From: Candidatus Dormiibacter spiritus
GTDB taxonomy: Bacteria; Chloroflexota; Dormibacteria; Dormibacterales; Dormibacteraceae
Assembly: GCA_003244185.1 (NCBI GenBank)
Contig: QHBT01000027.1
Coordinates: forward strand, 1-64,000
Direction of reading: 5' to 3'
DNA: 64,000 nucleotides
In this document: positions 9,789-27,808 of the stretch, in pieces
Layout: each line of letters begins with the position of its first letter
How positions within the stretch are numbered: the first letter of the stretch is position 1
The notes under the pieces: model-generated
Databases searched by the model: none
What the model was told of the DNA's origin: nothing
What the model saw: the letters and a program-made list of their open reading frames with translations, nothing else
Program-made: the position numbers and the translations under genes

Positions 9789-10235
9789 ATGGAACCGATC
9801 GACGCCGAGCAAGGCCCGATCAGTCTCTTTCACGTGCTCAGTGAGCGCGACTTGCCGCCCGAGGCGCTTGCCGTACCGCTGCCGGCGGCCTGGCGAGGTG
9901 TCCCGGTGATTGTGCGCGCGGTCTTGGAGCGTACGGCTGTCGTCTTTCCGGCTGCCACTGGCGGGAATCCTGAGGAGCGTTCCCTGGTCCAGCTGGACCA
10001 ACTGATGGTGGCCGCTGAGCGGCTGCGCTGGCGAAAGGTGCCCGCCTACTCGCGGAATTGGGGAGAGGGCCGGTATCCAGGCCTTCACCGACCGCGCCAG
10101 TGCATTCGATGTCGTCATGGCGAGCTAGATGTGGAGTTCCCGCCCGCGAGGTCGTCGTTCTGCCGTGGCTGCCGGCGCCAGCTGTCGCGGGAATGGCGGG
10201 CGCGTCGAAAGACAACAGGAGCGGCGGCTGCGTGA
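9789..10235 (+). CDS. Hypothetical protein with C-terminal zinc ribbon
   Basis: A 148-residue protein. The N-terminal 90 residues have no recognisable fold. The C-terminal part contains CIRC and, about 20 residues on, CRGC in a basic context, a likely zinc ribbon that could bind nucleic acid. The last codons overlap the GTG start of the FtsK-like translocase (GTGA), so the two should be co-transcribed and coupled. It is plausibly the first gene of the DNA-translocation operon running to 14810. Confidence 0.6.
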   Translation: MEPIDAEQGPISLFHVLSERDLPPEALAVPLPAAWRGVPVIVRAVLERTAVVFPAATGGNPEERSLVQLDQLMVAAERLRWRKVPAYSRNWGEGRYPGLHRPRQCIRCRHGELDVEFPPARSSFCRGCRRQLSREWRARRKTTGAAAA

Positions 10236-12028
10236 AGAAGGACGCCAAGAGCAACCAGTCGACCGGCGCTGAGGGCTCCGGCAGCGATCCGGACAAAGAA
10301 GCATGGGAGGCTCTAACCGGTATTTTGCTCCTGGTCGGCGGCGGCTACCTATGGTGGCGCGCTGGGCATCCGATCCCCTTCCTCAGCCACAATCCGTTGC
10401 GCGCTCTCGCATTTCCGCGCTGGCTCTCACTGGCGGCGGGCGCTGGAGCGGCCGCTGCCGTGGCCGGGGCAGTCTGGTGGGCCTGGCGCTGGTGGCAGCG
10501 ACGGCCAGCGCGGAAGGTTCTGAAGGCGTTTACTGAGCTTGGCTTGGAGAGCCGGTCGGGGGTCAAGCCGAAGCTAAAGAAATTCTCGCGCGAGGGTAGC
10601 CATACCATCCGCATGGGCTTCCGGCTGCCGGTCGTCGCCTCCAGCATGGGCTTGAAGCGGCTGCAGGCGAACCTGGAAGAGCACCTCGACGCCTCAGTTC
10701 GGGCCAGCTTCAACCAGGGCCTGGTCTGGATTCACCTCGGCACCCACGCCATGCCCAACCGGATCGACCTCGCCAGCTTCCGCCAGAAGACCAGGCCCGA
10801 GGGCGAGCTGCCGGTGGGCATTGGGATCACACGGGAGGGAAGCCGATATGCCGACCTGACCAAGATGCCGCACCTCCTGGTCGGTGGCACGACAGGCGGC
10901 GGTAAAAGTGTGTTCCTTCGCCAGGCGCTGACCGAGCTGGTGCGGGAGCGGCCGCCCACGCAGCTGCGCCTCGTGCTCGCCGATCTGAAGGGCGGCATGG
11001 AGTTCACGCTCTTCAGCCGCGTGCCCCACCTGCTGTGCCCGGTAGTGAACGACGTCCAGGGCTTCGCCGAGGCGATGACGGTCGTCACCGAGGAGTTGGA
11101 CCGGAGGATGGGGCTGCTTCGAGAGGCGGGCGTGGAGAGTCTCAAGGCCTGGAACCTCGCCTATCCCGAGCGCCGGATGCCCTATGTGGTGGTGGTCGTC
11201 GACGAACTCGGCGAGATCACGATCAAGAGTTCCGAGCGCGAGGACCAAATAGCCCGCCAACTCAATGTCAACTTGCTCTCGCGAGTTGCCAGGCTGGGGC
11301 GGGCACCGGGCGTCCATATGATCCTTTGCACACAGCGGCCGGATGCCGAGGTCGTGCCCGGCCAGATCAAGGCCAACCTGAACGCGATCCTTGCCTTCCG
11401 AGCCCAGGACCCCATCCAGTCCCAGATCTTGCTCGGCCAGGGGGATATTGCAGCGGCGCTGTTGCCCGCCGAGGCTCCAGGTCGCGCGATCTGGAAGTGG
11501 ATCGACGACGCGACAACGGTCCAGACCCCGCTGCTCGAAGTGTCGGAGGCGAAGCAGATGATCGACGCGGTAAGCGGAACCAGTGAGCCCCTGCCGCCGG
11601 CGGGTGCCACCGCCAGATCGGCGGAGCCGCGGGTGGCGGGCGTTAAGCGCCCCTCCGTACCTATTCCCGGCCACAGGCCAGAGCTGACAGTAGTGCCCAC
11701 GAGTCGCCCACCAGCGTCGGCGCCTAATGCGGCAGCGGACACGACCTCAGCTGCGGCAGGGGAGGTCAAACGGTCGCCTGGCGTCGATCTGCGGCGGCTC
11801 AAGTTGGGCGGCAAGTATGAATTTCACCTGCGTAACGGACGCGTGGTCCAAGGCACTGTGCGCTCAATCGATTTCGCGCCGGGCCGCGGTGGAGCCAATG
11901 CCGACGGCGAGCATCCGCTGTGGGTGAGCGGAAACGGACAGGACCACTGGTTGTCGCCCCGCGATCTGGCTCAGGCCAAGCGAGCTGCCACCACAACGAC
12001 AGCCGAAACCCTTACGGAGGAGACATGA
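10232..12028 (+). CDS. FtsK/SpoIIIE-type DNA translocase (TcpA-like)
   Basis: A 598-residue membrane-anchored DNA pump from GTG 10232, chosen for its overlap with the upstream stop; the frame itself opens at 10058. Two hydrophobic segments occupy about residues 25-95. A FtsK/SpoIIIE ATPase domain follows with Walker A GGTTGGGKS near residue 218 and Walker B VVVVVDELGE near 320, then RAPGVHMILCTQRP-type sensor sequence. The C-terminal 150 residues are Pro/Ala-rich, then a small strand-rich domain. The absence of an FtsK gamma domain and the position beside a Tcp-like secretion operon fit a conjugation coupling ATPase such as TcpA. Confidence 0.85.
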   Translation: MKKDAKSNQSTGAEGSGSDPDKEAWEALTGILLLVGGGYLWWRAGHPIPFLSHNPLRALAFPRWLSLAAGAGAAAAVAGAVWWAWRWWQRRPARKVLKAFTELGLESRSGVKPKLKKFSREGSHTIRMGFRLPVVASSMGLKRLQANLEEHLDASVRASFNQGLVWIHLGTHAMPNRIDLASFRQKTRPEGELPVGIGITREGSRYADLTKMPHLLVGGTTGGGKSVFLRQALTELVRERPPTQLRLVLADLKGGMEFTLFSRVPHLLCPVVNDVQGFAEAMTVVTEELDRRMGLLREAGVESLKAWNLAYPERRMPYVVVVVDELGEITIKSSEREDQIARQLNVNLLSRVARLGRAPGVHMILCTQRPDAEVVPGQIKANLNAILAFRAQDPIQSQILLGQGDIAAALLPAEAPGRAIWKWIDDATTVQTPLLEVSEAKQMIDAVSGTSEPLPPAGATARSAEPRVAGVKRPSVPIPGHRPELTVVPTSRPPASAPNAAADTTSAAAGEVKRSPGVDLRRLKLGGKYEFHLRNGRVVQGTVRSIDFAPGRGGANADGEHPLWVSGNGQDHWLSPRDLAQAKRAATTTTAETLTEET

Positions 12029-12330
12029 ACGACACAAACAAGGCCTGGGCCGATTTCGGTGAGATCGCCCAGACGGTGGAGCGGGTGCTGGTTCGCGAAG
12101 AGGAAGCCTGCGCTGCCCAGGAGCGCGAGCTGGCAGCGCTCCGCAAGAAGCTGCGCCGGCGGCAGTCCAGACTGCGCGCTAAGCGACGCGGTTTGGAGCG
12201 CTTCGCAGAGGAATGGCGTCGGGCGGACGATGGCGCAGGCTCGGCAAGCGACGTTCAGGGCGAGAACAGCATGGAACCGGAGAAGCTCGGTGCGGAACCG
12301 GTAAGGGTAGCCGTGGGGACCGGTAGATGA
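12025..12330 (+). CDS. Small coiled-coil protein in the translocase operon
   Basis: A 101-residue protein whose ATG overlaps the translocase stop (ATGA) and has GGAGGA just upstream. Residues about 20-70 form a highly charged helix (LVREEEACAAQERELAALRK, then an Arg-rich stretch), a probable coiled coil. Its own stop overlaps the next start by 4 nt. Frames upstream of 12025 belong to the FtsK-like gene. It could be an assembly or adaptor subunit between the translocase and the terminase-like proteins; this is inferred from position only. Confidence 0.7.
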   Translation: MNDTNKAWADFGEIAQTVERVLVREEEACAAQERELAALRKKLRRRQSRLRAKRRGLERFAEEWRRADDGAGSASDVQGENSMEPEKLGAEPVRVAVGTGR

Positions 12331-12845
12331 TGGAACAGCAGGTCTCAAACGAACCCGAAGACGCCGTTGTGCCGTTGAAAGACCCCGAGCGCCGGACCGG
12401 CCGTCCCTACGCGATCACTTCCGAGGTCGAGGAGCGCCTGATCCGGGCCTTAAGCGAAGGTCATCCGGTGACTGTCGCCTGCGGTGTGGCTGGCGTGGGT
12501 GTTTCCACTTATTTCGCTCATGCGCACCGCTTCCCGGAGTTCCGGCAACGAGTGACGCGCGCCCGTGCGAGAGGCATGGAGGAGCTGGGAAACACGGTCT
12601 ACGAGGCAGTGAAGATGGAGGCCGCGACCGGCAACACCCACGGATTGGTCGCGTACTACAAGTTGCGCCTTTCGTCGTGGCAGGTGGACCAGGACGCGGA
12701 GGAGCGGGCACTTGCGGGTGCCAAAGAACCCGAAGATATCGGCGGTGACGGGAAGTTTTTGAGCCTGGTTGTGAAGACCATCAAGCGAGAATTGGAAACC
12801 GGGCCGGGCACGAAGCGCGCCAGCGCACATCGTCCGGGGGCCTAA
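12327..12845 (+). CDS. Terminase-small-subunit-like HTH protein
   Basis: A 172-residue protein with an N-terminal helix-turn-helix at about residues 27-65 (TSEVEERLIRALSEGHPV, then VAGVGVSTYFAHAHRFPEF). A helical segment follows with GNTHGLVAYYKLRLSSW, resembling the tail of phage TerS proteins just before they contact the large subunit. It overlaps the coiled-coil gene by 4 nt and is followed after 9 nt by a protein with a terminase-large-type ATPase, the same gene order as in phages. The role, recognition of a DNA start site, is inferred from this pairing. Confidence 0.65.
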   Translation: MMEQQVSNEPEDAVVPLKDPERRTGRPYAITSEVEERLIRALSEGHPVTVACGVAGVGVSTYFAHAHRFPEFRQRVTRARARGMEELGNTVYEAVKMEAATGNTHGLVAYYKLRLSSWQVDQDAEERALAGAKEPEDIGGDGKFLSLVVKTIKRELETGPGTKRASAHRPGA

Positions 12846-12854
12846 GCGGCGGAC

Positions 12855-14810
12855 GTGCTTCGAGTCCAGGAAGATGTCGCCTCGGGCATTGAGCCGAAGT
12901 GGCTCACCGAGGCCGGTTCGGAGCTGCTTGTGAAGCGGATCGCGGAGTCCCTGACCAACGTCGCCGAGAGTCGGCACATCCCGGTGCTGCCGACTTTGGA
13001 ACAGGCTGAACTGCTCACCGCTACGGAGCCGGAGGCACTGCTAGCAGGCACAGCGCGCAGCGCCAAGACGATTGGGGTACTGATCTCTCTGGTGGCGGCT
13101 ATGGATCGGCCGTGCTCGGCGGTGCTGGTGGTTCCCGCCCTTGCCACTTCCCCGGCTCCGACTCTGCTGCGAGCCTGGCTCCAGGGCACGGAGGCTCGCT
13201 GGGACCCCAAGATCGGCAGTACTGGAAGCTGGCGGTTCCCTTCCGGAGGAACGCTGGGGGTAAGTCACCGGCGGGCACTTCCGAGTGCGGGCTACCAGGT
13301 GATCGGGGTCGACGATCTGGTCGAATTCGGCGAGGACGAATATCGGCGGCTGCTGGCGCTGCTCACCCCTCATCCGGAACTCATACAAGCTCCGTTGATG
13401 CGAGCGGCCTCGTCCCCCGATGGCCCCGGACGGAACTGGGTGGCCCGTCACTTTGGGCTTGATGGGCGACCAGCGTCGGGTTCTGGCCGCCGCGTGGTGG
13501 TGGCGGGCTACAAGAGCAACCCACATGTGGACTCAGAGGGGGTGCGCCGTGCGTTGGCTGGATTGCCGGAGCCACGGCGTTCGCGGCTGCTCCTCGGCGA
13601 CTGGACAGCCGGTGACCGGGAGGAGCAGGACGAGCCGTCGGAGGAGTCGGAAGACGACGGCATGTTCAACGGCGAGAAGGAGGAACCGGTGAGGCTGCGG
13701 GCGTTACTGGGCCATGCTGGTGAGCGCGAGGTCTGGTTCGACCCCTACCTGCCCAGGCGACCGCTCCCCAACTGCCATCTGCTGGCGACCGGGGAGACCG
13801 GCAGCGGAAAGACACAGACTGTGATGGCGGTGGCCGCAGAGCTGCGGGCCAAGGGAGTGGCACCGGTCATGCTCGACTTCTCCAAAGACGACTACTCCCA
13901 GGAGTGGGCGGCCGAGCAGGGACTTGAGGTGATCGATCCCTCGATCGGACGGCGACTGCCCTTCAACCCGCTGGCCGCAGTAGCGGATCCGGCGACCAGC
14001 TACGTCAACGGCCTACATCAGATCCACCGCGCCGTGGACATCGTGAAGCGGGTCTGGCGGCTCGGCGATCAGCAGGCATTCCGCTTTCGGGAGGCAGCTA
14101 AGGCAGCCTATCAGGAGGCGGGGCTACCGCTCGATCCCTACCGGCCCGAGAAGACGCTGATTTACCCCGGCCTACAAGAGGTGGTCGCTCGCCTCGACTC
14201 GGAGGACCCGACGCGGGGTCGGCTCTCGCCGCTCGTTGACCTGGACCCGTTCGACCAGACCACGGATGGGGGCGTCGCGTCCCTGCTCACGGATGGGGCG
14301 GTGATCCGCCTGACTGGGCTCCCGGGGGACGAGGCGAAGGCCTCGGTGGGAGAGTTCTTGCTGCTCGCGCTCTACCACGAGATGCGAGCACACGGCCACG
14401 TGCTTGGTCTGCGCTGGGTGCTCGGTCTCGACGAAGCGCATCGAGTTGCCTCCAGCCCCTTCTTGGAGCCGATACTCCGCGAGAGTCGCGCCTTCGGGCT
14501 TGGGGTAATGCTGGCGACTCAGTTCCCGCGCGATCTGAGCCTTGTTGTCAAGGGCTGCTGCGCCACTCAGCTGTATTTCGGCCAGACGCAGCTGGAGCAG
14601 ATCGCGGAGATCCAGCGTGCCGTGCACGGGGAGACGCGAGGCCGGGAAGCAAGCCGCCTCGCTCAGGCGCTCAGAACCCTCACCCCCTGTCACGCCGTCG
14701 TTCACTCCCGCGCAAGCTGGGGCCTCGTGAAGGTGAAGCCGTACTTCGAGCGAGGCACGTCTCGATTGTCTGGCTCGACGGATACGGTGGTACAAGATCC
14801 GGTACTATAG
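12855..14810 (+). CDS. TerL-type ATPase fused to a HerA/VirB4-type ATPase
   Basis: A 651-residue two-ATPase protein from GTG 12855. Residues 1-255 follow a phage terminase large-subunit ATPase: Walker A-like AGTARSAKT (64-72), Walker B-like GVDDLVEFGEDEY (151-163), coupling motif SSPDGPGRNWVARHF (187-201), then NPHVD and LLLGDW, which in terminases end the ATPase domain. The nuclease domain expected next is absent. An acidic linker (254-277) leads to a HerA/FtsK/VirB4-like domain with Walker A ATGETGSGKT (311-320) and Walker B VLGLDEAHR (522-530). The first Walker A departs from GxxxxGKT, so that site may not hydrolyse ATP. I know of no named family with this fusion. Confidence 0.8.
   Translation: MLRVQEDVASGIEPKWLTEAGSELLVKRIAESLTNVAESRHIPVLPTLEQAELLTATEPEALLAGTARSAKTIGVLISLVAAMDRPCSAVLVVPALATSPAPTLLRAWLQGTEARWDPKIGSTGSWRFPSGGTLGVSHRRALPSAGYQVIGVDDLVEFGEDEYRRLLALLTPHPELIQAPLMRAASSPDGPGRNWVARHFGLDGRPASGSGRRVVVAGYKSNPHVDSEGVRRALAGLPEPRRSRLLLGDWTAGDREEQDEPSEESEDDGMFNGEKEEPVRLRALLGHAGEREVWFDPYLPRRPLPNCHLLATGETGSGKTQTVMAVAAELRAKGVAPVMLDFSKDDYSQEWAAEQGLEVIDPSIGRRLPFNPLAAVADPATSYVNGLHQIHRAVDIVKRVWRLGDQQAFRFREAAKAAYQEAGLPLDPYRPEKTLIYPGLQEVVARLDSEDPTRGRLSPLVDLDPFDQTTDGGVASLLTDGAVIRLTGLPGDEAKASVGEFLLLALYHEMRAHGHVLGLRWVLGLDEAHRVASSPFLEPILRESRAFGLGVMLATQFPRDLSLVVKGCCATQLYFGQTQLEQIAEIQRAVHGETRGREASRLAQALRTLTPCHAVVHSRASWGLVKVKPYFERGTSRLSGSTDTVVQDPVL
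14803..14808 (+). promoter_or_regulatory. Probable -10 box of yefM-yoeB (leaderless)
   Basis: TACTAT lies 6 nt before the antitoxin ATG and overlaps the last codons of the fused-ATPase gene. Transcription from it would start at or next to the start codon. No clear -35 is visible. The module thus seems to have its own promoter. Confidence 0.5.
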
Positions 14811-14814: not shown

Positions 14815-15063
14815 ATGGCTATCTCCGCAAGCGAAGCTCGTAAGCGCCTCTTCCCCCTGATTGAGCAGGTCAACAGCGACAGCAAACCAGTTGAGATCCT
14901 GTCTCGGCGCGGAAACGCTGTTCTGCTCTCTCGCGACGAGTTCGACGCCCTGGAAGAGACAGCCCATCTTCTGCGGTCCCCGGTGAACGCCGCGCGCCTC
15001 GTGGAGAGTCTTGTTCAAGCCAAGAGGGGCGAGCGTCAGGAGCACTCTCTTCCGCCCGGTTGA
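14815..15063 (+). CDS. yefM: YefM/Phd-type antitoxin
   Basis: An 82-residue antitoxin of the Phd/YefM family. The N-terminal domain is typical: [17 protein letters not shown], then [20 protein letters not shown]. The C-terminal part is helical and charged and should bind the toxin. It is followed with a 4-nt overlap by a YoeB-like toxin. The pair sits immediately after the translocase operon. Confidence 0.92.
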
Positions 15064-15314
15064 GGCTGGTCTTCACGCCGAACGGCTGGCAGGACTACAT
15101 CTACTGGCAGGCTAACGATCGTTCAACCCTGAAGCGCATCAATCGGCTCCTGGCGGAGATCGTGCGGGACCCGACGGCCGGGATCGGCAAGCCAGAGCCG
15201 CTGCGTCACTTGCTTGCGGGCTGCTGGTCGCGTCGGATCAGCGATGAGCACCGCCTCGTCTACCTCCTCGACGGCGACGACGTTGTGATTCTTCAAGCGC
15301 GATACCACTACTGA
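15060..15314 (+). CDS. yoeB: YoeB-type mRNA interferase toxin
   Basis: An 84-residue ribosome-dependent mRNA endonuclease of the RelE/YoeB fold. Family residues are clear: [46 protein letters not shown] and the terminal ARYHY, which carries the catalytic C-terminal His/Tyr. The start is TTG, overlapping the antitoxin stop (TTGA). The ordering, antitoxin first, is the classical one. Confidence 0.95.
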
Positions 15315-16567: not shown

Positions 16568-16576
16568 CTCAGCCTC

Positions 16577-17243: not shown

Positions 17244-18533
17244 TTGAGCACGGAACCCCACGGCCGCGTCGTGCCATACCCACGGCGGTACGGCCGGGAG
17301 CGGGAGCAGCCAGCCAATCAAGACTGTCTGCAGTCGATTCCGCCGCCACCGTCGGCGCCACCAGCCGGCTGGCAGCCGCCCGCCCCGTCCACCACTTCGG
17401 GCGAGATCCCGCCTCCGCCCAAGGAACCGCCCCCAGGCTGGAACCCTGTACAGCGCCAGATCCCGACCGGGCCGGCGACGGCCGTACGCCCGCCGCCATC
17501 ACCGCTTGCGGAGCCTGCGGAGAAGAAGGGGCCAGCCAGTGGCCAGCGTCGGCCGACTGAGCCCAGAGCTGATGAAGCTGCGGCATCGGAACCTGCGGCT
17601 CCATTGCCCACCCCTGGCTCCCGCTCGGCGCGCCTGGCGCGCCGCATCTATTCAGCTCAGGTGGGCGGCCTGCGCGAGATGGAGTGGTCCGAGCGGGCAA
17701 AGCAAGTTGCGCTGCCCTTGCTGGTCTATGCGGTCATCGTTGCGCTCACCGCGGGCGTCGTTAACGCCTGGCAGAACCTCCATCGGCCACCGGCACAGGT
17801 GGTGACAAACCAGGCGGGCGTGCCAGCCGACTATGCGTTTCCGCGTCCGGCGGCTTCGAGCCTGGCGGTCCAGTTCACCTCCGTCTACCTGGACACGGGC
17901 CGATCGGCGGACGAGCGTAAGGCTCAGCTGGCGACCTTGACGGTGGCCTCCCCCGACGATCCCAGCTATGGGTACCCCGAGGGTGGGAAGGCACCGGGCG
18001 TGGCGGTTCTGGGCGCTTACGTGGCGGGCTACCAGCAGCTCGATCCCAAGACTGCTCGCGTAATTGTGGTCGCAACCCTGGCGCCCTCTCTGCGGCGCGT
18101 GGTGCTGGCGGTCAAGGTCAAGCAGGATTCCAGTTCGGGGAGCCTGGCGGTAGCGGCTCCGCCGGCTTTTGTGTCGGCTCCAGCGCCTGGCCAGATGGAT
18201 CAGCTGGGGGGCGACGCAAACAGCAGCCTGGATTCGAGTGTGCAGGCCGCGTTGAAAGTGTTGTTCACCGCGTACGGAGCCAGCGATAAAGCAGCCTTGC
18301 AGTCGGTCGGTGTGAGTGGCGGTTCGGTCAGAGGCGGTCTTGGTGGAGCGGTGACGCTGGCCGCCATCGCACCAGTCAAGGTGCTGACCTGCGATTCAGC
18401 ACAGATGGACTGCACTTTGAACGTCATGGTGACCTGGCACATGGACAACCAGGGAACCTTCGTCCAGCCCTATCGGGTCCATATGCGCAGTGTTGACGCC
18501 GCCTGGCGCGTCGTCAGCCTGAATGCCATCTGA
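17244..18533 (+). CDS. TcpC-like conjugation channel protein
   Basis: A 429-residue protein with a TTG start. Residues 1-150 are a Pro-rich cytoplasmic region (IPPPPSAPPAGWQPP), followed by one transmembrane segment near 155-175 (VALPLLVYAVIVALTAGVV). The extracytoplasmic half has two alpha/beta repeats of about 120 residues, the arrangement seen in TcpC/Orf13 of pCW3 and Tn916, which resemble VirB8 NTF2-like domains. It opens the secretion operon, as TcpC genes often do. Assignment rests on architecture and neighbours rather than strong motif identity. Confidence 0.75.
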   Translation: MSTEPHGRVVPYPRRYGREREQPANQDCLQSIPPPPSAPPAGWQPPAPSTTSGEIPPPPKEPPPGWNPVQRQIPTGPATAVRPPPSPLAEPAEKKGPASGQRRPTEPRADEAAASEPAAPLPTPGSRSARLARRIYSAQVGGLREMEWSERAKQVALPLLVYAVIVALTAGVVNAWQNLHRPPAQVVTNQAGVPADYAFPRPAASSLAVQFTSVYLDTGRSADERKAQLATLTVASPDDPSYGYPEGGKAPGVAVLGAYVAGYQQLDPKTARVIVVATLAPSLRRVVLAVKVKQDSSSGSLAVAAPPAFVSAPAPGQMDQLGGDANSSLDSSVQAALKVLFTAYGASDKAALQSVGVSGGSVRGGLGGAVTLAAIAPVKVLTCDSAQMDCTLNVMVTWHMDNQGTFVQPYRVHMRSVDAAWRVVSLNAI

Positions 18534-18539
18534 AGGAGG
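18533..18539 (+). promoter_or_regulatory. Strong ribosome binding site deciding a start
   Basis: AAGGAGG overlaps the stop region of the TcpC-like gene. It lies 8 nt before GTG 18548, so that codon rather than GTG 18539 is the start of the next gene. Confidence 0.7.
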
Positions 18540-18547
18540 TGGAAAAA

Positions 18548-18808
18548 GTGATTTCGAACATGATTCTGGCCAGCGCCCCAACGGCTGCCCCGCTTGCGGA
18601 CTGGTTTCTGGGGCTGATCGCCGTGGTGCTCGGCGCCGCCGCCGTCTTCATGTTGCTCAAGCACTTCGTCAAGGGTGCCTACCCGCAGATGGTGGTTACC
18701 GTCCTGGCAGCAGTCCTGGTGGCGATGTTCGTGTTCAACCGCGACGCGCTGAAGATCGTTGCAGACAGTGCCTGGTCGCTGTTCAAGACAGCCTTCGGGC
18801 AGAGCTAG
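18548..18808 (+). CDS. Two-helix membrane protein, TcpD/pilin-like
   Basis: An 86-residue protein with two hydrophobic segments (about residues 16-37 and 50-66: WFLGLIAVVLGAAAVFMLL and MVVTVLAAVLVAMFVFN) and a short C-terminal helix. Small proteins of this shape occupy the TcpD or VirB2/TrbC position in conjugation operons. A pilin or channel-rim role is possible but unproven. The start was chosen from the preceding AAGGAGG. Confidence 0.75.
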   Translation: MISNMILASAPTAAPLADWFLGLIAVVLGAAAVFMLLKHFVKGAYPQMVVTVLAAVLVAMFVFNRDALKIVADSAWSLFKTAFGQS

Positions 18809-18829
18809 GGACAGGTAGGAGGGCCGGGC

Positions 18830-18958
18830 GTGCTGATACTGCTGATGTGGGCCTGGCTTACGGCTCTCCTGGTAGCGCTGTGGTTGTTGCCTGGTCAGAC
18901 CCGGCAGCTCCTGGACCAGATGTGGCTCGGCTCCGGTCCTATCGGGGGGCGCGGCTGA
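18830..18958 (+). CDS. 42-residue single-helix membrane peptide
   Basis: A GTG-started 42-residue peptide with one hydrophobic helix (LILLMWAWLTALLVALWLL) and a short polar tail. A GTAGGAGG ribosome site precedes it, and its TGA overlaps the ATG of the TcpE-like gene (ATGA). The ribosome site and coupling support translation. It is likely a small accessory subunit of the secretion apparatus; no homologue is recognised. Confidence 0.6.
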   Translation: MLILLMWAWLTALLVALWLLPGQTRQLLDQMWLGSGPIGGRG

Positions 18959-19407
18959 TGCACCTGGAACTTCCCGTCTACAAGGGGCTGCTGGACATCA
19001 GCCATCGGCTCTACGCGATCGGCAAGTGGCAGCTCTGGCGGCCGGTGGACCTGATGCAGGCTGCAGTCGCGGGCTGCGCCTTCCTGCCCCTCGTCTTCTT
19101 CTGGTTCCGACTTCTTCCATTCGCGCCCAGCCAGATCCGCCTCGGCTGCTGGATCGTGTCGATGTGGATCGTGTACAGGCTGGCGGGCACGGAGACGCCG
19201 GACGGGCTGTCGCCGATCCGGTGGGCCTGGTATGCCATTCTCTACCTGTTCGAGCCGCCCAAGTTCAACGCATGGGGCATCGGTGTCTTCCTGCCGGGCT
19301 CTGATCGGCTAAGGGTGGAGACCGTGGTTGCCCGCGCCCCCAAGCCACGGCGACTACAACGGACTTCTAAGGCCCAGCCGGGCCGCGCGCCCGGAGCGCC
19401 GGCTTGA
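18958..19407 (+). CDS. TcpE-like conjugation membrane protein
   Basis: A 149-residue protein from ATG 18958, in a frame open well upstream. Two hydrophobic segments (near residues 37-58 and 62-78) are followed by FEPPKFNAWG and a basic tail. In Tn916/pCW3-type systems the TcpE protein sits directly before the VirB4-type ATPase and has this topology and size. It overlaps that ATPase gene by 4 nt here. Confidence 0.7.
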   Translation: MHLELPVYKGLLDISHRLYAIGKWQLWRPVDLMQAAVAGCAFLPLVFFWFRLLPFAPSQIRLGCWIVSMWIVYRLAGTETPDGLSPIRWAWYAILYLFEPPKFNAWGIGVFLPGSDRLRVETVVARAPKPRRLQRTSKAQPGRAPGAPA

Positions 19408-21995
19408 GAGCGGAACGTGGCTATGTGGCTGACGGCTACAGCCTCTTTGACGGCCGCCCAAGCCTCTGGTTCCAGTTGCCGATGCGACGCTACGACCTCT
19501 CGACGCAAGAACAGCTGGTCAGCCAGGCCAGGGCCTACTCGCTCCTCTTCGACCGGCTCCCGGAGGGGACGCATCAGCTGAAGGTGGTCGCCACGCCCAT
19601 CGACCTCCCCCAGTGGGAGGACGAGGCGAAGACGCTCAAGGTCGCGGGCGCCCGAGACGGGCTGTGGGACGAGTTCGTTGAGCTCCAAGCCGCCTACCTG
19701 TTCGGCAGCCAGATTTACAGCCGCGAAGCCTTCTTGGGCGTTGACATCGCCAACGAAGATTCGCTGCTGGCCGCCAGCAAGCGATGGTGGGCGGCGCACA
19801 GCCGTGCAAAGCGGCGGGCGGAGCGACTGTTAGGGGCAAGTAACCCGCGCCCGAGCCGCTTTGAGATTCGGGAGCTGGAGCAGGCCCTGCGCTCGGCGCT
19901 GGCGCTCTATGAGGAGCTGGTGCCGGGCATCGCTCTCGCGACCGCCGCCCAGCTCCGCTGGCTAATTGCGCGCCAGAGCTACTTGGGCCAGGGCCAGCCG
20001 GAGGCAGTGCCCTACCGCCGCTCCTTCTGGGGCGCCGAGCTCGAAGTCCTGGCCGACGCCGAGATAGAGAACGGCCGCGGCCGCGTCCGCTTGACCCGGC
20101 CAGAAGGTACGACCAGCTATGTCGCGCTGCTCCCGGTCATCCGGATGCCCGAGATCATGCACTACCCGGCCGGTGGCCACGAGTGGCTTCTCGCCTACGA
20201 CTCCCTGAACTTCCCCGTCGACGTGGATTGCCACGTCGAGGTGATCGGCACCAAGAAAGCGGTCAAAGCCCTAAGCCGCACAATTCAGGTCGCGCGCTCT
20301 CAGAACGAGGACGCCCAGGCATCGGGCGACCTGGATATCTCCACTGCACGCACCATCGCCGGTGCCAGCGAAGTCCAGGCCCAGATCCAGCGCGACCATG
20401 CGCCGTTGGTGCGCTTTCACGCCCGCTTTGTGGTCGCCGCTTCCTCCGAGGAGGAGCTGAAGATTCGGGTCAACAGCCTTCGCGGCCTGTATACGAACCT
20501 AGGCTTGGAGGCCCGGGCGGTCTGGAACCGGCAGAAGGTGCTCTTCGAGGAAGCCATGCTGGCCGCAGCCTTAAAGCAGCGCACTTGGGGCCAGCTGGCA
20601 CCGTCTATAACCCTGGGCGGCTCAGGCTTCTTCGCTGATACCGACCTGGGTGACGACGTGGGAGCTTTCGCCGGCTGGAACTACTCGCTTCGGCCGCAGC
20701 CGGTCTTCCTGGACGTGCTTGGCGCCGGCCGCTCTCGCGGAACATCGGTGACCGCGATCGTCGGTCAGTCCGGTAGCGGCAAGAGCAACCTCGCCTACTA
20801 CCTCTGCTACCAGGCCCTCTGCATGGGCGCCGCCTGCCTCCTGATCGACCCCAAGCGGGAGTCGAACGGATTGCAGTTCTTAGTTCGCGAGGTGGGCCTG
20901 CCAGTCCGCGTAGTGCGTTTCGATGCCTCACGGCATCCGGGCGTCCTCGATCCTCACCGCTTGATTGATCCGGAGCGGAAAGACCCGCATTCCCTGAATA
21001 AGGTCCGCGACCTCGCCTCCAATCAGGTTCAGCAACTGGTCGGACACCACCTCTGGGAGCAGGGCGGTGCCGAGGAGTTCTACCAGGCGATGAGCGCCGC
21101 GCACAGGGAAGGCCAGTACGACATGGCTGCGGTATTGGAGCAGATCAGGGGCTTTATCGGGCAGCCGGACCACCCCTTCGCGCGGAACATGTACGTGCGT
21201 CTGACCGAGATCAGCCGCTCGGCGGCGGCTGGCATCTTCTTTGGCGATGGTCGGCCGCTTGAGGAGCTGGACCTATCTGAGGGGCTGACCGTCGTCCAGT
21301 TCAGTGGCCTTGATATGCCGCAGCCAGGCACCCCGCGCAGCGAGTGGACGACCAGTCAGGTGCTCTCCTCGGTCCTTCTCCAGGGTGTGGCCCAGCTCAG
21401 CATCGGCTTGCTGGAAGCTGGTGGGCACGCTCGGCCAAAAGCGTTCTTTGGCGACGAGCTGTGGATGCTCTCGGACATACCACAGGGTCGGACCCTCATC
21501 TCCCAGCTCGCCCGCCTGGGTTCTTCCAAGAACGTCTCCGTCTACCTGATTAGCCAGAACCCCTCCGACCTTCAGGACGAGCGCATCCGCAACCAGATCG
21601 GCATCACCATCTGCCTGCGGATGGGCTCTGAGGGCTCCGGGCGCGACGCCATGCGCTTGCTGGGTCTGTCCGAGGAGCATCACGAGCTCCTGACCGGGCT
21701 CGACGAAAACACAGACAAGGGCAAGGGCATCATGAAGGATCGCCAGGGCCGCATCGGGCATTTCGCGTGTGACCTGATGGGCGCCATGGACCGCACGTTC
21801 CTCGACGCGTTCGACACCACGGCGGGACGCCAGACGAACCTTGAAGTTGAGGAGCTGCCCGAGCTGCACGCGACTGGCGCGGACGGCGTGGATGGCAACG
21901 GCCATGCGGCGGAGATTGCGGAGGAGCCGCGCTGGCTAGGTTCAACCCCGCTGTTCGGCTCCGAGCGCCCCCCGGAGCAGGAGCCTCGTTCATGA
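19404..21995 (+). CDS. VirB4/TcpF-like secretion ATPase
   Basis: An 863-residue ATPase that would energise the conjugative type IV channel. The N-terminal 400 residues form the TraC/VirB4 N-domain; the C-terminal ATPase has Walker A VGQSGSGKSN near residue 452 and Walker B AFFGDELWML near 680, then a conserved VSVYLISQNPSDL sensor-like motif. The family signature after Walker A, LLIDPKRESNGL, is also clear. The TTG start overlaps the TcpE-like stop and the end overlaps the next gene by 4 nt. Confidence 0.92.
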   Translation: MRAERGYVADGYSLFDGRPSLWFQLPMRRYDLSTQEQLVSQARAYSLLFDRLPEGTHQLKVVATPIDLPQWEDEAKTLKVAGARDGLWDEFVELQAAYLFGSQIYSREAFLGVDIANEDSLLAASKRWWAAHSRAKRRAERLLGASNPRPSRFEIRELEQALRSALALYEELVPGIALATAAQLRWLIARQSYLGQGQPEAVPYRRSFWGAELEVLADAEIENGRGRVRLTRPEGTTSYVALLPVIRMPEIMHYPAGGHEWLLAYDSLNFPVDVDCHVEVIGTKKAVKALSRTIQVARSQNEDAQASGDLDISTARTIAGASEVQAQIQRDHAPLVRFHARFVVAASSEEELKIRVNSLRGLYTNLGLEARAVWNRQKVLFEEAMLAAALKQRTWGQLAPSITLGGSGFFADTDLGDDVGAFAGWNYSLRPQPVFLDVLGAGRSRGTSVTAIVGQSGSGKSNLAYYLCYQALCMGAACLLIDPKRESNGLQFLVREVGLPVRVVRFDASRHPGVLDPHRLIDPERKDPHSLNKVRDLASNQVQQLVGHHLWEQGGAEEFYQAMSAAHREGQYDMAAVLEQIRGFIGQPDHPFARNMYVRLTEISRSAAAGIFFGDGRPLEELDLSEGLTVVQFSGLDMPQPGTPRSEWTTSQVLSSVLLQGVAQLSIGLLEAGGHARPKAFFGDELWMLSDIPQGRTLISQLARLGSSKNVSVYLISQNPSDLQDERIRNQIGITICLRMGSEGSGRDAMRLLGLSEEHHELLTGLDENTDKGKGIMKDRQGRIGHFACDLMGAMDRTFLDAFDTTAGRQTNLEVEELPELHATGADGVDGNGHAAEIAEEPRWLGSTPLFGSERPPEQEPRS

Positions 21996-24253
21996 AGGGA
22001 TTTCGCCGGAAGCTCTGTTTGACCCTTCTCGGTGCCCTGGCGTTGGCGGCGACGCCGCTGCTGGCCCAGGCTGCAACAACCCCGGGAAATCCTGACTCCT
22101 GCGGCAGCACGGCCATTTTCGGGAACGTGAGGGTCAGCGATATGCGCTGTGGGTCTGAGAAAAACCTCTTCGAGGCCTATCCACCGCCGGCCTACCAGAT
22201 GTATGCGGACTACGGAAGCCCAGCCGACCCGACTGCCCTTGGGCTACACGGGCCGATCAACAACGCCGCCAACCTGGAGTTCTCCGCTGCCGCCATGGTC
22301 GGCCGGATATCGATGCAGCTGCTCCAGGTCGCCAGCCAGGCCAGCCTGCTCGACGCCGTGGACGATCCCTACCGCGACCCCATCACCGGGCGCTCGGTTG
22401 GGAAAGGGCCGGTCCACTCCGTGGTCGACGCGCTCAAGGCTGGCCTCTACGAGCCCCTGCTCGTCATCCTGGCCGCCGTCTTCGCCTTCAACCTCTTGCG
22501 CGCCTACCTGCGCGGCCGCTATCAGGAGATCGGCAGCCAGATCGCTCTGGCCTTTTTGATCGGCGGGCTGACCAGTGCCTTCGTCGTCGATCCGCTCTAC
22601 GTTCCGCGCCTGGTCGACAACGCCAGCAGCGCGATCACCAGCTCCGGCTTGCAAGCCGAGATCTCCGCGGACCCGCAAATGGCCCGCGTTGCAAACTCAG
22701 CTCAGTACAAGTACGGCTCGCCGGTGGACAAGGGGATGAGGCTCCTCGCGGACGAGTACTGGCGGACCTTCATCTTCATCCCCTGGGAGGTCGCTACGTT
22801 CCAGGACGCCTCGATCGGCCAGAAATGCGTCAGCGCCGACGACGTGAAGCCGGGCGATAAAAACTACTTCGGCGTCACGGTGCCAGGCTCCGCCGATAAA
22901 GGACCGGACGTCCGACCGGTGGCCAACCCAGATTGCAAGAACAGCGGTCAGGTGGGCTCGGCGGGCGACGCCATCTTGGCCTACAACGCCTCTGGCCAGA
23001 CTAACTCCGATATGACGAAGAAGATCACCAAGGTGGACGGTCAGTTGGACCAGGCCAACAACTACCACGACTTTTATCTCAAGGGGAACGCGCCGTTCTG
23101 GCGCGTGACGATCGGGATCGTCACCATGCTGCTCGCCGGGATCTCTGGGCTCATCATTGGCGGGCTGGCTTTGATCGCCTTGATCTCCCAGGCAGGCGAG
23201 ATAGCGCTGGTCTGCCTGACGCCGGTGGTCGGATTGATCGGCATGTCCGAACAGGGGCGCCCGCTCTTCCTGACTTGGCTGCGCTTGATCCTCAGTCTGG
23301 CCGTGCTGCGGCCCCTGGCCATCTTCACCACCGGACTCCTCTTGGTGCTCAACGGCCTCCTGACCTCTTCGACGGACACCGCCGGAGTCGCGCAGTCGGA
23401 GTTCTGGTGGGCGCCCCCATTCCTGGAGCTGGCCTTCCTCTCTGTTGTCTACGTCTTCCGCCGCCCGCTGCTCCATGCCGCCTCCGCCGCGCTCCACATC
23501 GACAGCCGGGCGCTGAATCTGGTCCACGCCAGCCGGGCCAAGCAGAATGCGATCCCGGGCGGCAGCGGCACCCAGGCTGCGGTGCCAACCGGGGCAGCAT
23601 CGGTTCCTGCCACCACCCAGGGCGCGACCGGCGCTGGCAGCAGCACCACCGGCCTCAGCTCTCGGCGCCGGGTGCCCGCGTTGGTGGGGGCGTCGAACTC
23701 GCTCGGCAGCCAGATCGGCCGCGGCAGGTCCGGCTTCACGGCCTGGGCGGACGGCAATCGGCGGGAGTTCACGGGGAATGTGAAGGACGGAAGCGGCCAC
23801 GGCAGCCGATTGGTTGCCTCTGGCGGAACGGACGCATCGGCTTGGGTCGGGATTGGCAAGGCCGGTCTTGGCAACGCCAAGCTCCAAGCTCGGGTGGCGG
23901 GACAGGTCGCGAAAGGCACGGCGCTGGCTCCGCGCAACCTCATGCGAGCGGCGCAGAGCGCGGCCTGGAATGCCACCGAGCGGGCAACAGGCATGTCGCC
24001 CGAGTACAGCGCGGACCATCGCAAGGTCAAAGCCGATCAGGAGAAGGCGGCTGGCGAGCGCGTTACGGCGCGAGCTCAAGCCCTTATGCCGGAACACCTA
24101 GTCAAGCAGCGAGCGGAGGAATACCTCAAGTTCAGACAGCAGAACAAGGACTTGTCGGCTGCTCAGGAGATGGGTCAGGATCGTCTACTGCCGGCGAGTC
24201 CACCCCGCCTGCTTTCCCAACGCCGACCCCTGCCAAAGGACGGCCGACCGTGA
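21992..24253 (+). CDS. VirB6/TcpH-like polytopic membrane protein
   Basis: A 753-residue protein with a cleavable-looking signal peptide (LTLLGALALAATPLLAQA). Hydrophobic segments cluster around residues 145-165 and 185-205, then 370-500, surrounding a large extracytoplasmic loop. The C-terminal 230 residues are a long hydrophilic tail rich in Gly, Ser and Lys. Topology and the position after VirB4 fit the channel scaffold VirB6/TrbL or TcpH. The last part (PASPPRLLSQRRPLPKDG) has unusual composition, so the end could be affected by a frame change. Confidence 0.8.
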   Translation: MKGFRRKLCLTLLGALALAATPLLAQAATTPGNPDSCGSTAIFGNVRVSDMRCGSEKNLFEAYPPPAYQMYADYGSPADPTALGLHGPINNAANLEFSAAAMVGRISMQLLQVASQASLLDAVDDPYRDPITGRSVGKGPVHSVVDALKAGLYEPLLVILAAVFAFNLLRAYLRGRYQEIGSQIALAFLIGGLTSAFVVDPLYVPRLVDNASSAITSSGLQAEISADPQMARVANSAQYKYGSPVDKGMRLLADEYWRTFIFIPWEVATFQDASIGQKCVSADDVKPGDKNYFGVTVPGSADKGPDVRPVANPDCKNSGQVGSAGDAILAYNASGQTNSDMTKKITKVDGQLDQANNYHDFYLKGNAPFWRVTIGIVTMLLAGISGLIIGGLALIALISQAGEIALVCLTPVVGLIGMSEQGRPLFLTWLRLILSLAVLRPLAIFTTGLLLVLNGLLTSSTDTAGVAQSEFWWAPPFLELAFLSVVYVFRRPLLHAASAALHIDSRALNLVHASRAKQNAIPGGSGTQAAVPTGAASVPATTQGATGAGSSTTGLSSRRRVPALVGASNSLGSQIGRGRSGFTAWADGNRREFTGNVKDGSGHGSRLVASGGTDASAWVGIGKAGLGNAKLQARVAGQVAKGTALAPRNLMRAAQSAAWNATERATGMSPEYSADHRKVKADQEKAAGERVTARAQALMPEHLVKQRAEEYLKFRQQNKDLSAAQEMGQDRLLPASPPRLLSQRRPLPKDGRP

Positions 24254-24903
24254 CGGATCATCGCGCCTGGATAGGTCCCCTGGCGGCTCTGGGGTTGCTG
24301 TTGGTGGCGGCGTGTGGCAGCAGCGGTGCCGGCGCGACCAAACCGTCTCCGTCACACCTGCCGTTGACGGAGAGCGGACCGCCCGCATTCCGGGGTGAAC
24401 CCGACTACCAGAAGGTTCCCGTCACAGGCGCGAAGGACGTCGGGCTGAGCGATCAAGACGCCCGCGATCTGCTGCGCTGGACAGTCCGCTTCGCGAACTA
24501 TCTGTGGACATTCGACGAGGGTCAGACCGGAGGCCAGGAACGGCAGAAGGTCTGGCCGTTCTACACGCCTCGCCAGCAAACACGTCTCCCAAGTCCTAAC
24601 GACCAGGAGGCGAGAAGCCCTGGTGGCAAGTGGGGATGGCAACCAGGTCGCCAGAGGCTTACCTGGGCTAGTCCTCCGCTGGCAGCGAAGCTCGAGAAGT
24701 CAACGTCAAAGGAATTCCCCGGCGACATAAGGATCACTGTGGATCATGCGCAAACCATTGCCGAAATTAAAGGGCCAAAGCCGGACGACACCGCTGTGGT
24801 TCACGAGGTGCAGAAGATCGCCGGACACTGGCGGATAGACGCATACAACGCATACGTGGTCGGCGGGTCGTTCAGCCGCGATGAGGAGGCAAGTGCAGTA
24901 TGA
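24250..24903 (+). CDS. Secretion-operon lipoprotein
   Basis: A 217-residue lipoprotein from GTG 24250. The N-terminus has a type II signal with lipobox LLVAAC at about residues 17-22. The mature part contains YQKVPVTGAKDVGLSDQD and FANYLWTFDEGQ, and its size and strand pattern suggest an NTF2/VirB8-like or VirB7-like accessory role. It overlaps neighbours on both sides by 4 nt, so it belongs to the apparatus operon. The frame is open from 23275 but upstream of 24250 it is antisense-like noise. Confidence 0.75.
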   Translation: MTDHRAWIGPLAALGLLLVAACGSSGAGATKPSPSHLPLTESGPPAFRGEPDYQKVPVTGAKDVGLSDQDARDLLRWTVRFANYLWTFDEGQTGGQERQKVWPFYTPRQQTRLPSPNDQEARSPGGKWGWQPGRQRLTWASPPLAAKLEKSTSKEFPGDIRITVDHAQTIAEIKGPKPDDTAVVHEVQKIAGHWRIDAYNAYVVGGSFSRDEEASAV

Positions 24904-26114
24904 GTCAGCCTTTGCACAACAGCCCGTTGAGCCCCGACGGCTCCTGGCGTTGGAACGGGTCCCAATGGGTGCCGAATATGCCGGGCTCCGAGCAGGAACC
25001 GGTTCCGGTGTTGGCGCGGGAGTCGGGCTTCCCGACCTCTGAGACTTCGGTTCCCGCTGGCCCGCTCAGCCCTAGTCTCGCAGCTGACAACGACGACTTG
25101 AGCCGGGCACTCGCCGAGCGTCGGCGGAGCAAGCCCATTCCTCGGACGGGATTGCGCAACCTGCTCTACAAGGTCACCGGTGGTCGGGTGAACCTGGGTG
25201 CCAGCGAGAGGGAGTTGCATCAGCTCCAGCTGATCCAGAAGATCCGCTCAGGGATCACCAGTCGGCCGCATCGGCTGGGGGTGGGGTCAGCCAAGGGGGG
25301 CGTCGGCAAGACGACACTCAGTCTCCTCCTGACCAGTTTGCTCGGCCTTGAGCGCAAAGATCTACCGATCTATGTGGAGGCCAACCCACATCACGGCACC
25401 TGTCGGGAGCGGGTGCATCTGCAGCACGAGGAGTCGATCTCTGACCTCCTCGAGTTCCTGTGCAGCCGCGGAGGCCCGGAGCTGGACCTTGAGGTGGGTC
25501 AGCCTCGTGTCAACTCGTTTGCCCCCGTGGTGTCGGAGATGGGCATGGCCGTCCTCACCGCACCCCGTGACAGCTGGACGCGGGCCGCGCTCAATGAAGG
25601 GTCATATCGCCGAATCTTGCGCCTCCTCTACCACTACTGCCAATCCTTTCTAACTCTCGATTTGGGCACAGGTCTAGTGGACTCAGCGACGACGTACGCG
25701 TTCCAGGTCTGCGATCAGGCATTGATTGTCTCCTCGCCGACGGCGGACACCGCAAGCCTGGCCGATAAGACGATGCGCTACGTGGCCGATCTGCGCGGAG
25801 CGGAGTTCGTGCGGGAGCGGGTGCTGGTGGCTATCAACGAGGTGGATGGCTCCAAGAGCGCCAAGCAGGACGTGGAGGTGTTGACCAACCACTTCAGCCG
25901 GCACGTGCGCAAGGTGCTCCACGTCCACCGGGATCCACACCTGGCCGAGGGAACGTTCCTGGATTGGAGCAAAATCTCACGGCCGGTTCGCGACGACCTC
26001 CTGGAGGTGGCTGCAGAGGTCGCGTCTGGGTTCGCACTCGGGTTCGCCCACGACAACGATCCGGTCCTTGAGGAGCGGAAGCTCCAAGATCTCACCGGAT
26101 CCGCCGCCACCTAG
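24900..26114 (+). CDS. ParA/MinD-type ATPase of the secretion operon
   Basis: A 404-residue protein. The N-terminal 25 residues (LSPDGSWRWNGSQWVPN) match the short Trp-rich DUF2510-like motif found on actinobacterial membrane proteins. The central domain is a deviant-Walker ParA/MinD ATPase with GSAKGGVGKTTLSL near residue 127 and DLGTGLVDSAT near 255. A partner ParB is not visible. In conjugation systems such proteins can localise the apparatus or partition the element. It overlaps the lipoprotein gene by 4 nt. Confidence 0.8.
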   Translation: MSQPLHNSPLSPDGSWRWNGSQWVPNMPGSEQEPVPVLARESGFPTSETSVPAGPLSPSLAADNDDLSRALAERRRSKPIPRTGLRNLLYKVTGGRVNLGASERELHQLQLIQKIRSGITSRPHRLGVGSAKGGVGKTTLSLLLTSLLGLERKDLPIYVEANPHHGTCRERVHLQHEESISDLLEFLCSRGGPELDLEVGQPRVNSFAPVVSEMGMAVLTAPRDSWTRAALNEGSYRRILRLLYHYCQSFLTLDLGTGLVDSATTYAFQVCDQALIVSSPTADTASLADKTMRYVADLRGAEFVRERVLVAINEVDGSKSAKQDVEVLTNHFSRHVRKVLHVHRDPHLAEGTFLDWSKISRPVRDDLLEVAAEVASGFALGFAHDNDPVLEERKLQDLTGSAAT

Positions 26115-26123
26115 GCGACCTCA

Positions 26124-26777
26124 ATGGGTGAGTTCTTCGGAGTCTACCCTCGGATGAGGTGGCTGGCGGGGCTGGCCGCAGTACTGCTGTTGCTGGGCAT
26201 CGGCGCGCTGGTCTGGCATCAGCTCCAACCTCCCACAGCGTCGTCCCGGCAGATGGCGGCTGTAGGGCCGTCAGCCCCGGCACAAGCCACTGCGGTGCCT
26301 ACGGCGGTCGCTCAGCCAGGTAGTGCCCCGCCGCCCACTACTGCGGTATCAGCGGCGCCTACAGCGGCTTCTACTCCCCCGCCACTGGTGCCCTATCCGG
26401 AGGCAGAGGTGGCAGCCGCCAGGGAGGTTGCCATGAAGTTCCTGGTGGCGCTGGAGAGCTATCGCTACGATGACCCGCTCGACGCCGTGCGGAAGGCCGT
26501 TCGCCCCTATGTGACCGACAAACTGCACCAGGAATTGAGCAAGTCCTCAAGCGGTGCAGCTGGCAACGCAAAGCGAGCCGCCTCGCATGAGATCAGCACT
26601 GCGACAGTGGTTCACGTCGCGTGTGAGGGCTGCGCTGGCGGAGCCCCTCTGGGGTTCATCGGCCAGATCAAGCAGCACATCCATTCCGACGCGGGCGACC
26701 GCGACGAAACGGTTCCGATCGAGACCATCATGGCCAAGACGCCAGCAGGCTGGCGAGTGGCCGAGGTGAACTTCTAG
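26124..26777 (+). CDS. Membrane-anchored accessory protein
   Basis: A 217-residue protein with one N-terminal hydrophobic segment (about residues 14-34), a Pro/Ala/Thr-rich stretch to residue 90, then a compact alpha/beta domain of about 125 residues containing FLVALESYRYDD and ETIMAKTPAGWRVAEVNF. The C-terminal domain resembles an NTF2-like/VirB8-type fold by pattern. It lies between the ParA-like and TcpG-like genes, within the operon, and probably spans the wall region. No named family is recognised. Confidence 0.65.
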   Translation: MGEFFGVYPRMRWLAGLAAVLLLLGIGALVWHQLQPPTASSRQMAAVGPSAPAQATAVPTAVAQPGSAPPPTTAVSAAPTAASTPPPLVPYPEAEVAAAREVAMKFLVALESYRYDDPLDAVRKAVRPYVTDKLHQELSKSSSGAAGNAKRAASHEISTATVVHVACEGCAGGAPLGFIGQIKQHIHSDAGDRDETVPIETIMAKTPAGWRVAEVNF

Positions 26778-26779
26778 CG

Positions 26780-27808
26780 ATGAAGAAGTGGTTCTTGGCC
26801 GGACTCGTGATTCTGGTCGTGGTTGCGGTGGCGCCTCTCTTTCTGCTAGCAAGCGTGTTCCAGCCCAGCGCGGGGAGCAATCCGGGCGGAGGGCCCGGCG
26901 TCGGCGCTCCCAGCGCAGCGGCCCTGGCTGACATCCCACCCGACTTCCTAGCGGCCTACCAGCACGCCGCTACAACTGTTAAGGACGTGCCCTGGTGGAT
27001 CATCGCGGCGATCGGAAAGGAGGAGACTGACCACGGCCGCTCCACCCTGCCTGGCGTCCGTTCGGGCACCAACAGCGCCGGTGCGGCTGGGCCGATGCAG
27101 TTTCTGCTAAGCACCTGGGCGGCCTACAAGCACGACTGCGGTGGCGGCGGCAACGTCTACGACATCCGTGACGCTTCCTGCGGAACTGCGGCCTATCTCC
27201 AGGCCCTTCTCAACGAGCACGGCGGCGACATGGGTCGGGCGATCTTCGGTTACAACCATGCCGCCTGGTACGTGGCCGACATCCTTCGGATCGCGGCCAC
27301 TTACTACGTTCAGGTGGCGACCACCGCCGTGGTCAATGCTGCCACCGGTGCCCTCGACAAGTTGCTAGCGGATGTGCACTACTCAGCCAGCCAGATCGCG
27401 CACGGGTTCGGCACGATCCTCGAGCAGCACCCCTACCGCAGCGGCGAGAAGCTGTTTGAGGGCGTGCCCGGCAACGGCTTCCCTCACGACACGTATGCGT
27501 TTGGCCAGTGCACTTGGTGGGTGGCAATCAACCACAACGTCGACGGTCATATGGGCGACGGCGGTATCTGGATTCGCTCAGCCGTGGCGCTCCATCTGGC
27601 GGTCTCCCAGACGCCGTCGGTGGGTGCCGTGGTGTCCTATGCGCCCGGCAAGTATTCGGGGTACGGCCACGTCGCCATCGTGATCCTGGTGGATAGAGAG
27701 CACAACGCGATAGTCGTCAGCGAGAGCAATGTGCGCGGCCTCGGCACCATCGACACCCGGGTAAACGGCCTCGATGATCCGGACATTCAGGGATTCATCG
27801 CTGCCTGA
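26780..27808 (+). CDS. TcpG-like peptidoglycan hydrolase (SLT plus CHAP)
   Basis: A 342-residue cell-wall hydrolase that would open peptidoglycan for the conjugation channel. After an N-terminal signal or anchor come a lytic transglycosylase domain (catalytic Glu in IAAIGKEETDHG near residue 76, then GAAGPMQFLLSTW and YNHAAWYV) and a CHAP amidase/peptidase domain (catalytic Cys in FGQCTWWV near 243, His in GYGHVAIV near 297). This two-domain build is the signature of TcpG/Orf14 of Gram-positive conjugative elements. The catalytic residues are intact. Confidence 0.92.
   Translation: MKKWFLAGLVILVVVAVAPLFLLASVFQPSAGSNPGGGPGVGAPSAAALADIPPDFLAAYQHAATTVKDVPWWIIAAIGKEETDHGRSTLPGVRSGTNSAGAAGPMQFLLSTWAAYKHDCGGGGNVYDIRDASCGTAAYLQALLNEHGGDMGRAIFGYNHAAWYVADILRIAATYYVQVATTAVVNAATGALDKLLADVHYSASQIAHGFGTILEQHPYRSGEKLFEGVPGNGFPHDTYAFGQCTWWVAINHNVDGHMGDGGIWIRSAVALHLAVSQTPSVGAVVSYAPGKYSGYGHVAIVILVDREHNAIVVSESNVRGLGTIDTRVNGLDDPDIQGFIAA

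Follow-up and report, generated by a model that had tools for sequence, protein, structure and literature searches.

The window, the whole 64,000-nucleotide stretch analysed here (positions 1 to 64,000 of contig QHBT01000027.1 of Candidatus Dormiibacter spiritus, with zero Ns), carries a run of four plus-strand genes. They encode an FtsK-type DNA pump, a 101-amino-acid protein, a protein related to phage terminase small subunits (TerS), and a fusion protein, here called Q, in which a domain derived from the terminase large subunit (TerL) is followed by a second, HerA-family ATPase. These genes, the parts of Q and the gene pair that follows them are:

10058..12028, plus strand: FtsK/SpoIIIE-type DNA pump with about two N-terminal TM segments by eye (Pfam FtsK_SpoIIIE, 4e-33; phrog_1358, 2e-69); translation may in fact begin downstream of 10058
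12025..12330, plus strand: 101-aa protein, coiled-coil-like from its sequence; no family match found
12327..12845, plus strand: TerS-like protein of 172 aa, an HTH followed by helices (terminase small subunit families phrog_1482, 1e-8, and phrog_4102, 5e-8)
12855..14810, plus strand: fusion protein Q, 651 aa, apparent pseudo-TerL ATPase joined to a HerA/DndH-type ATPase (ORF, tblastn, alignment, fold model and Foldseek)
12960..13610, plus strand: Q aa 36-252, ATPase domain of the TerL type, its catalytic motifs degenerate (tblastn 2e-13; motif comparison with 80 viral TerLs)
13044..13070, plus strand: degenerate Walker A AGTARSAKT (TerL consensus GGAAGGGKS in the same comparison)
13617..13766, plus strand: acidic disordered linker, Q aa 255-304, at the point where phage TerLs start their nuclease (pLDDT <50)
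13767..14729, plus strand: Q aa 305-625, HerA/FtsK-clade ATPase of the DndH/DptH C-domain type with intact motifs (Foldseek, PADLOC and sequence identity)
13791..13814, plus strand: intact Walker A GETGSGKT (motif comparison)
14427..14444, plus strand: Walker B LDEAHR (motif comparison)
14815..15314, plus strand: YefM/RelB-YoeB-like toxin-antitoxin pair (ORFs 14815-15063 and 15060-15314; identity by inspection only), probably separate from the four-gene module

The FtsK and 101-aa genes, and likewise the 101-aa and TerS genes, overlap by four nucleotides (ATGA), and nine nucleotides separate TerS from Q. A preliminary description of this DNA, made from its letters alone, had placed an FtsK-like pump with 4-nt coupling two genes upstream of the TerS-like gene, and the gene order is as it stated. 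The Q reading frame opens with GTG and runs for 651 codons without a break, and all of the motifs reported in that description lie within it: AGTARSAKT (aa 64-72), VDDLVEFGEDEY, SSPDGPGRNW, LLLGDW, ATGETGSGKT (aa 311-320) and LDEAHR (aa 525-530). A fold model built with 21 relatives has two confident domains, at about residues 30-254 and 305-590, and is disordered from 255 to 304. Codon-position GC is similar in the two halves of Q and in the neighbouring genes. When the halves were submitted to Foldseek separately, the N-terminal one found phage terminases (TerLs) and the C-terminal one found the DndH C-domain, VirB4 and HerA. Q is a real two-domain fusion.

The N-terminal half contains an ASCE ATPase domain of the TerL type. 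The preliminary description had let this assignment stand or fall on a terminase match, and tblastn against phage records finds annotated TerLs of PhiF3 (2e-13), psiM2 (9e-9) and a Pelagibacter phage (3e-6); a profile of this half gave no match by sequence to solved structures. A small alignment used to scan viral contigs recovered 474 relatives of the N-terminal half, the best 80 of which (E 1e-29 to 1e-23) we compared with Q. Among these best 80 of 474, 76 loci have a TerL ORF that is closed at either end and continues about 170-270 residues beyond the matched stretch, the size of a TerL nuclease (three of the other ORFs leave their contig at the 3' end and one at the 5' end), and the HerA half is absent from all 80. 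Since the viral proteins continue with a nuclease-size stretch and lack the second half of Q, Q departs from TerL at the border between ATPase and nuclease. The C-terminal RNase H-like nuclease of TerL is absent from Q, and the linker and HerA domain stand in its place, so that the earlier claim of a TerL ATPase domain running into a second ATPase where the nuclease should begin is supported by tblastn, the viral alignment, the fold model and Foldseek alike.

The same 80 TerLs show what has been kept and what has been lost. Q shares with phage TerS-TerL cassettes (those with psiM2/PhiF3-type TerL, phrog_979) its gene order, ATPase fold and P-x-x-P-x-x-x-Q motif ahead of Walker A, as well as the scaffold residues P46, Q50, E60, G65, W108, W126, F128, P129, R183, P188, G192, W195, N222, P223, L234, L237, G248 and W250. 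It differs from them in having a second ATPase and no nuclease, in having no recognised portal or capsid genes beside it, and in its catalytic positions. In the P-loop G70 (100% in the TerLs) and G64 (99%) are both Ala; Asp takes the place of the catalytic Glu that follows Walker B (100%; E154D); the motif-III, or coupling-motif, Asn (100%) is Ser (N187S); a 99% conserved Arg past the P-loop helix and strand has gone through a short deletion; and the conserved RLRR stretch is missing. Thus this half has neither an intact Walker A nor the catalytic Glu or the coupling motif of TerL. K71 and D153 are retained, so it may still bind nucleotide, and with the other catalytic residues lost it is unlikely to hydrolyse ATP; judged from its residues it looks like a pseudo-ATPase. 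The "complete" TerL ATPase layout formerly attributed to the first 255 residues has the motifs quoted for it and is degenerate at its catalytic positions. The accompanying remark that the first Walker A is degenerate and that this half may be structural was apt, and understated: every catalytic position tested is degenerate, and the half is probably structural.

The gene before Q encodes an HTH protein homologous to TerS, as the preliminary description had said. Beyond its PHROG matches (its match to Pfam Sf6_terminase, at 1e-3, is under the cut-off), in six of the 80 viral loci (L041, L045, L063, L070, L075 and L080; E 3e-8 to 3e-4) it aligns to the ORF that immediately precedes TerL. Because its homologues have this place in phages, what was captured is a TerS-TerL cassette and not a single domain. 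A single-sequence fold model of the protein is poor (pLDDT 40); a ring oligomer that binds a pac-type site is a putative form for it. Candidate pac or oriT repeats are weak two-copy matches only.

The C-terminal half keeps the Walker A, Walker B, arginine and sensor Gln positions and belongs to the HerA/FtsK clade. Its Pfam matches are weak and of the HerA/TrwB type. The DndH C-domain (PDB 7es4) is the first Foldseek match (E 4e-17, target TM 0.70), with VirB4 and HerA next, and its PADLOC match is also DndH (5e-22). It is 33% identical to a DUF87 protein adjoining dptF and dptG on a Priestia plasmid and 50% identical to its closest relative, a DndH-like protein of a genome of the same class (G370) whose operon also encodes SspG and a DruA/SspF fusion. 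In a tree it adjoins that protein and lies far from the VirB4 and FtsK of the window (support 80-93%, long branches). Profile, fold and identity all place DndH ahead of VirB4, and with the window's own VirB4 distant in the tree we reject a VirB4 origin of this half; the label "HerA/VirB4-type" given to it earlier is thus right as to HerA and wrong as to VirB4. Q has the C-domain only, and neither the DptF/DptG partners nor the REase and inactive methylase domains of DndH were found; its neighbours are FtsK, the 101-aa protein and TerS. The G370 operon is a hybrid Ssp/Dnd restriction module (contig C144, L129 2-9658), with a 1259-aa DruA(DUF4338)-SspF fusion, an SspG-like protein and the DndH-like protein, which is truncated by the contig end.

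The FtsK-Q genes appear to belong to a conjugative mobile element. The toxin-antitoxin pair and some opposite-strand genes lie between Q and a set of type IV secretion system (T4SS) genes that begins 2.4 kb downstream:

17244..27808, plus strand: T4SS operon (Pfam)
17244-18533, plus strand: TcpC/VirB8-like (Pfam)
18539-18808, plus strand: small TM protein
about 18958-19407, plus strand: TcpE-like (Pfam)
19404-21995, plus strand: VirB4 (Pfam)
21992-24253, plus strand: TrbL/VirB6-like (Pfam)
24250-24903, plus strand: unnamed gene of the operon
24900-26114, plus strand: ParA/MinD
26124-26777, plus strand: unnamed gene of the operon
26780-27808, plus strand: SLT-CHAP

Relatives of the VirB4, ParA and SLT/CHAP genes co-occur on a Nocardiopsis plasmid, and the FtsK-Q genes and the T4SS putatively form one element. 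The arrangement is like Tcp-type conjugation (Tn916/pCW3, with TcpA as FtsK-like coupling protein) in combining an FtsK-like pump with a TcpC/TcpE/VirB4/VirB6/CHAP set, and unlike it in that TerS and Q follow FtsK here and the usual MobT-type relaxase gene was not found. The whole genome has no PF02486 relaxase; it has two of PF03432, on contigs C4 and C16, and none on the Q contig. The end of contig C4 encodes a MOBP relaxase and a VirD4-like coupling protein (L127 16727-19626), which may be the missing part of the Q element or may belong to another one; we found no overlap joining C4 to the start of the Q contig. Part of the element may be missing, since the contig starts at window position 1. 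A search for the element's border at the right flank found no synteny with a genome of the same genus.

Several other mobile or addiction-type genes are present in the window. At its left end a RusA gene (650-1195) and a DUF4326 gene (1349-1777) are followed by a truncated C-5 cytosine methylase (1774-2064). An IS3-like element at 5455-6686 (orfA 5455-5802 and orfB 5799-6686, by inspection) overlaps the end of a minus-strand ORF (4435-5628); three PIN-toxin-like/antitoxin-like pairs (by inspection; one RHH antitoxin, 7512-7739, by Pfam) occupy 7172-8971 and 16145-16786 on the minus strand; and an intact Mutator-family transposase lies at 34803-36095 (Pfam, 1.5e-130).

The FtsK subfamily recurs with 35-48% identity in several genomes of the same class and once more in the Q genome, and two of these related loci have RusA- or recombinase-like ORFs nearby (by inspection). 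Neither TerS nor Q was found at the other FtsK loci of the class. The second copy in the Q genome (contig C11, L164 2224-3998) is immediately preceded by a RusA-like gene (by inspection), and its FtsK match contains an in-frame TGA.

The TerL-HerA fusion is known from one copy in one draft genome of 71 contigs. Homologues keeping both domains, for which the preliminary description had proposed a search, did not turn up: there is no second fusion in the sampled 400 genomes of the phylum or in all 110 genomes of the class that were examined, nor in pattern-limited scans of genome contigs and viral contigs with full-length Q, and matches in the plasmid and phage searches cover just one half of Q. 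A lone relative of the TerL half in another genome (G083) runs into the end of its contig and may or may not be part of a fusion. These negative searches are unequal in strength and some of the scans are insensitive; the alignment-based scan of genome contigs, for example, gave no fusion among the matches listed, but its patterns went to generic P-loop peptides and the absence is a weak one.

The comparisons show that a TerS-TerL pair of the tailed-phage type was captured, and that its TerL lost the nuclease and the hydrolysis residues and kept its scaffold. A flexible acidic linker connects the TerL remnant with an ATPase of the HerA/DndH type whose motifs are intact. The safest reading is of a HerA DNA pump whose target would be set by a phage-derived recogniser, TerS plus a dead TerL, and throughout this reading function is something we infer. 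The suggestion that such a machine recognises DNA like a packaging motor and does not cut it fits a TerS paired with a TerL-derived domain that lacks a nuclease. More specifically, we tentatively favour, at somewhat less than even odds, a targeted dsDNA pump built from the captured packaging cassette and serving the transfer or handling of the element's own DNA. TerS would bind a specific dsDNA site; the pseudo-TerL domain might dock onto the TerS-DNA complex or stand in for TerL as an adaptor; and the HerA half, as a hexameric ring, would move the bound DNA without cutting it. The most likely client would be the element itself, because the FtsK, 101-aa, TerS and Q genes are tightly packed on an apparently conjugative element, and Q would gather this DNA and feed it to the FtsK pump in the membrane, to be transferred or segregated.

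We count in favour of the pump reading, besides the features of Q and TerS and the close gene spacing set out above, the recurrence of the FtsK subfamily in the class and the Tcp-type T4SS downstream on the same strand. TdtA, a HerA-family hexamer encoded by ICETh1 of Thermus thermophilus and required for DNA donation in transjugation (PMC5365140), gives a precedent for a HerA-family pump in DNA donation; unlike Q, it has no terminase domain or TerS, has a NurA-like nuclease partner, and is a HAS-barrel HerA rather than one of the DndH type. The same HerA module as in Q also occurs C-terminal to another DNA-handling domain, in this case an SF1-helicase domain, in a 1004-aa protein annotated as UvrD-helicase on Vibrio fluvialis plasmid pIDH5335-2 (L040 8150-11161), beside mobI and traG in a conjugative region. 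Against the pump reading stand the single copy, the other FtsK loci of the class that lack TerS and Q, the defence proteins that are the nearest relatives of the HerA half, and the MOBP relaxases elsewhere in the genome, which could serve the T4SS conventionally. Delivery of double-stranded DNA to a type IV channel, formerly suggested as a possibility, is less secure: the T4SS is 2.4 kb away behind toxin-antitoxin and opposite-strand genes, MOBP relaxases lie on other contigs, and DndH-type HerA fusions have been proposed to act against invaders. The boldest form of the idea, a "capsid-less packaging" in which the element swapped relaxase-type selection for choice by TerS, with the dead TerL presenting uncut dsDNA for export by the HerA ring and FtsK, strikes us as unlikely.

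A serious rival, although we think it the less probable, is interception of phage packaging. Here TerS and the dead TerL would act as a decoy that joins the packaging complex or pac DNA of an infecting phage, and the HerA ring would divert or stall the DNA and so protect the host. The DndH type of the HerA half and the place of its closest relative in an SspF/DruA-SspG-DndH defence operon of the same class speak for this, and a dominant-negative decoy would be a dead motor. In the described "HerA/FtsK capture systems" DndH-type HerA domains are paired with mobile-element enzymes that are catalytically dead, and their proposed task is to intercept the DNA of invaders in replication, transfer or packaging (PMC10853773). 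A decoy made of a terminase and attached to HerA agrees well with this proposal. Q likewise couples a HerA/FtsK domain to an inactive-looking domain of mobile-element origin; it resembles DndH/DptH and these systems in ATPase clade, in the C-terminal position of the ATPase after a linker, in its dead partner and in the mobile-element genes nearby. It is unlike them in having as its dead partner a terminase, a kind of enzyme absent from that paper, and in that TerS and FtsK genes lie at the locus, with no REase, methylase or DptF/G recognised. The described systems have an active endonuclease, but the four genes of the set gave no recognisable nuclease family or other effector domain (Pfam, PHROG, PADLOC); moreover, a decoy does not need a coupled FtsK pump, and TerS has no PADLOC model match.

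Two further alternatives are less probable still. PICIs redirect the packaging of their helper phage by means of their own TerS, and the element's TerS and pseudo-TerL could similarly redirect helper-phage packaging to element DNA. TerS has been kept beside a TerL-derived domain without nuclease, and genes of the RusA and DUF4326 kinds, typical of phages and satellites, lie at the left end of the window, but no capsid, portal or head-remodelling gene was found among the ten window ORFs scanned against PHROGs, a HerA pump is not a known part of PICI packaging, and the T4SS offers another route of transfer; we consider this satellite-like role improbable. That Q arose from two genes joined in assembly, or is a decaying remnant without function, is the least probable explanation of all, even with a single draft genome and no independent copy, given an N-free open frame of 651 codons with similar codon-position GC in both halves and the neighbours, a join that falls precisely on a domain border and has a linker, losses that cluster at the ATP site while scaffold and fold are kept (unlike random decay), and a HerA half most closely related to a protein of the same bacterial class.

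Packaging terminases and HerA/FtsK pumps move double-stranded DNA in two distinct ways. If the targeted-pump reading is true, Q represents a new way to aim a DNA pump at chosen DNA, and a single protein in which one dead motor serves as recognition platform for another pump would be a natural case of DNA-pump retargeting. It would also bring terminases into the published idea of HerA capture, and it touches on the possible borrowing of packaging-site recognition by conjugation or anti-phage defence.
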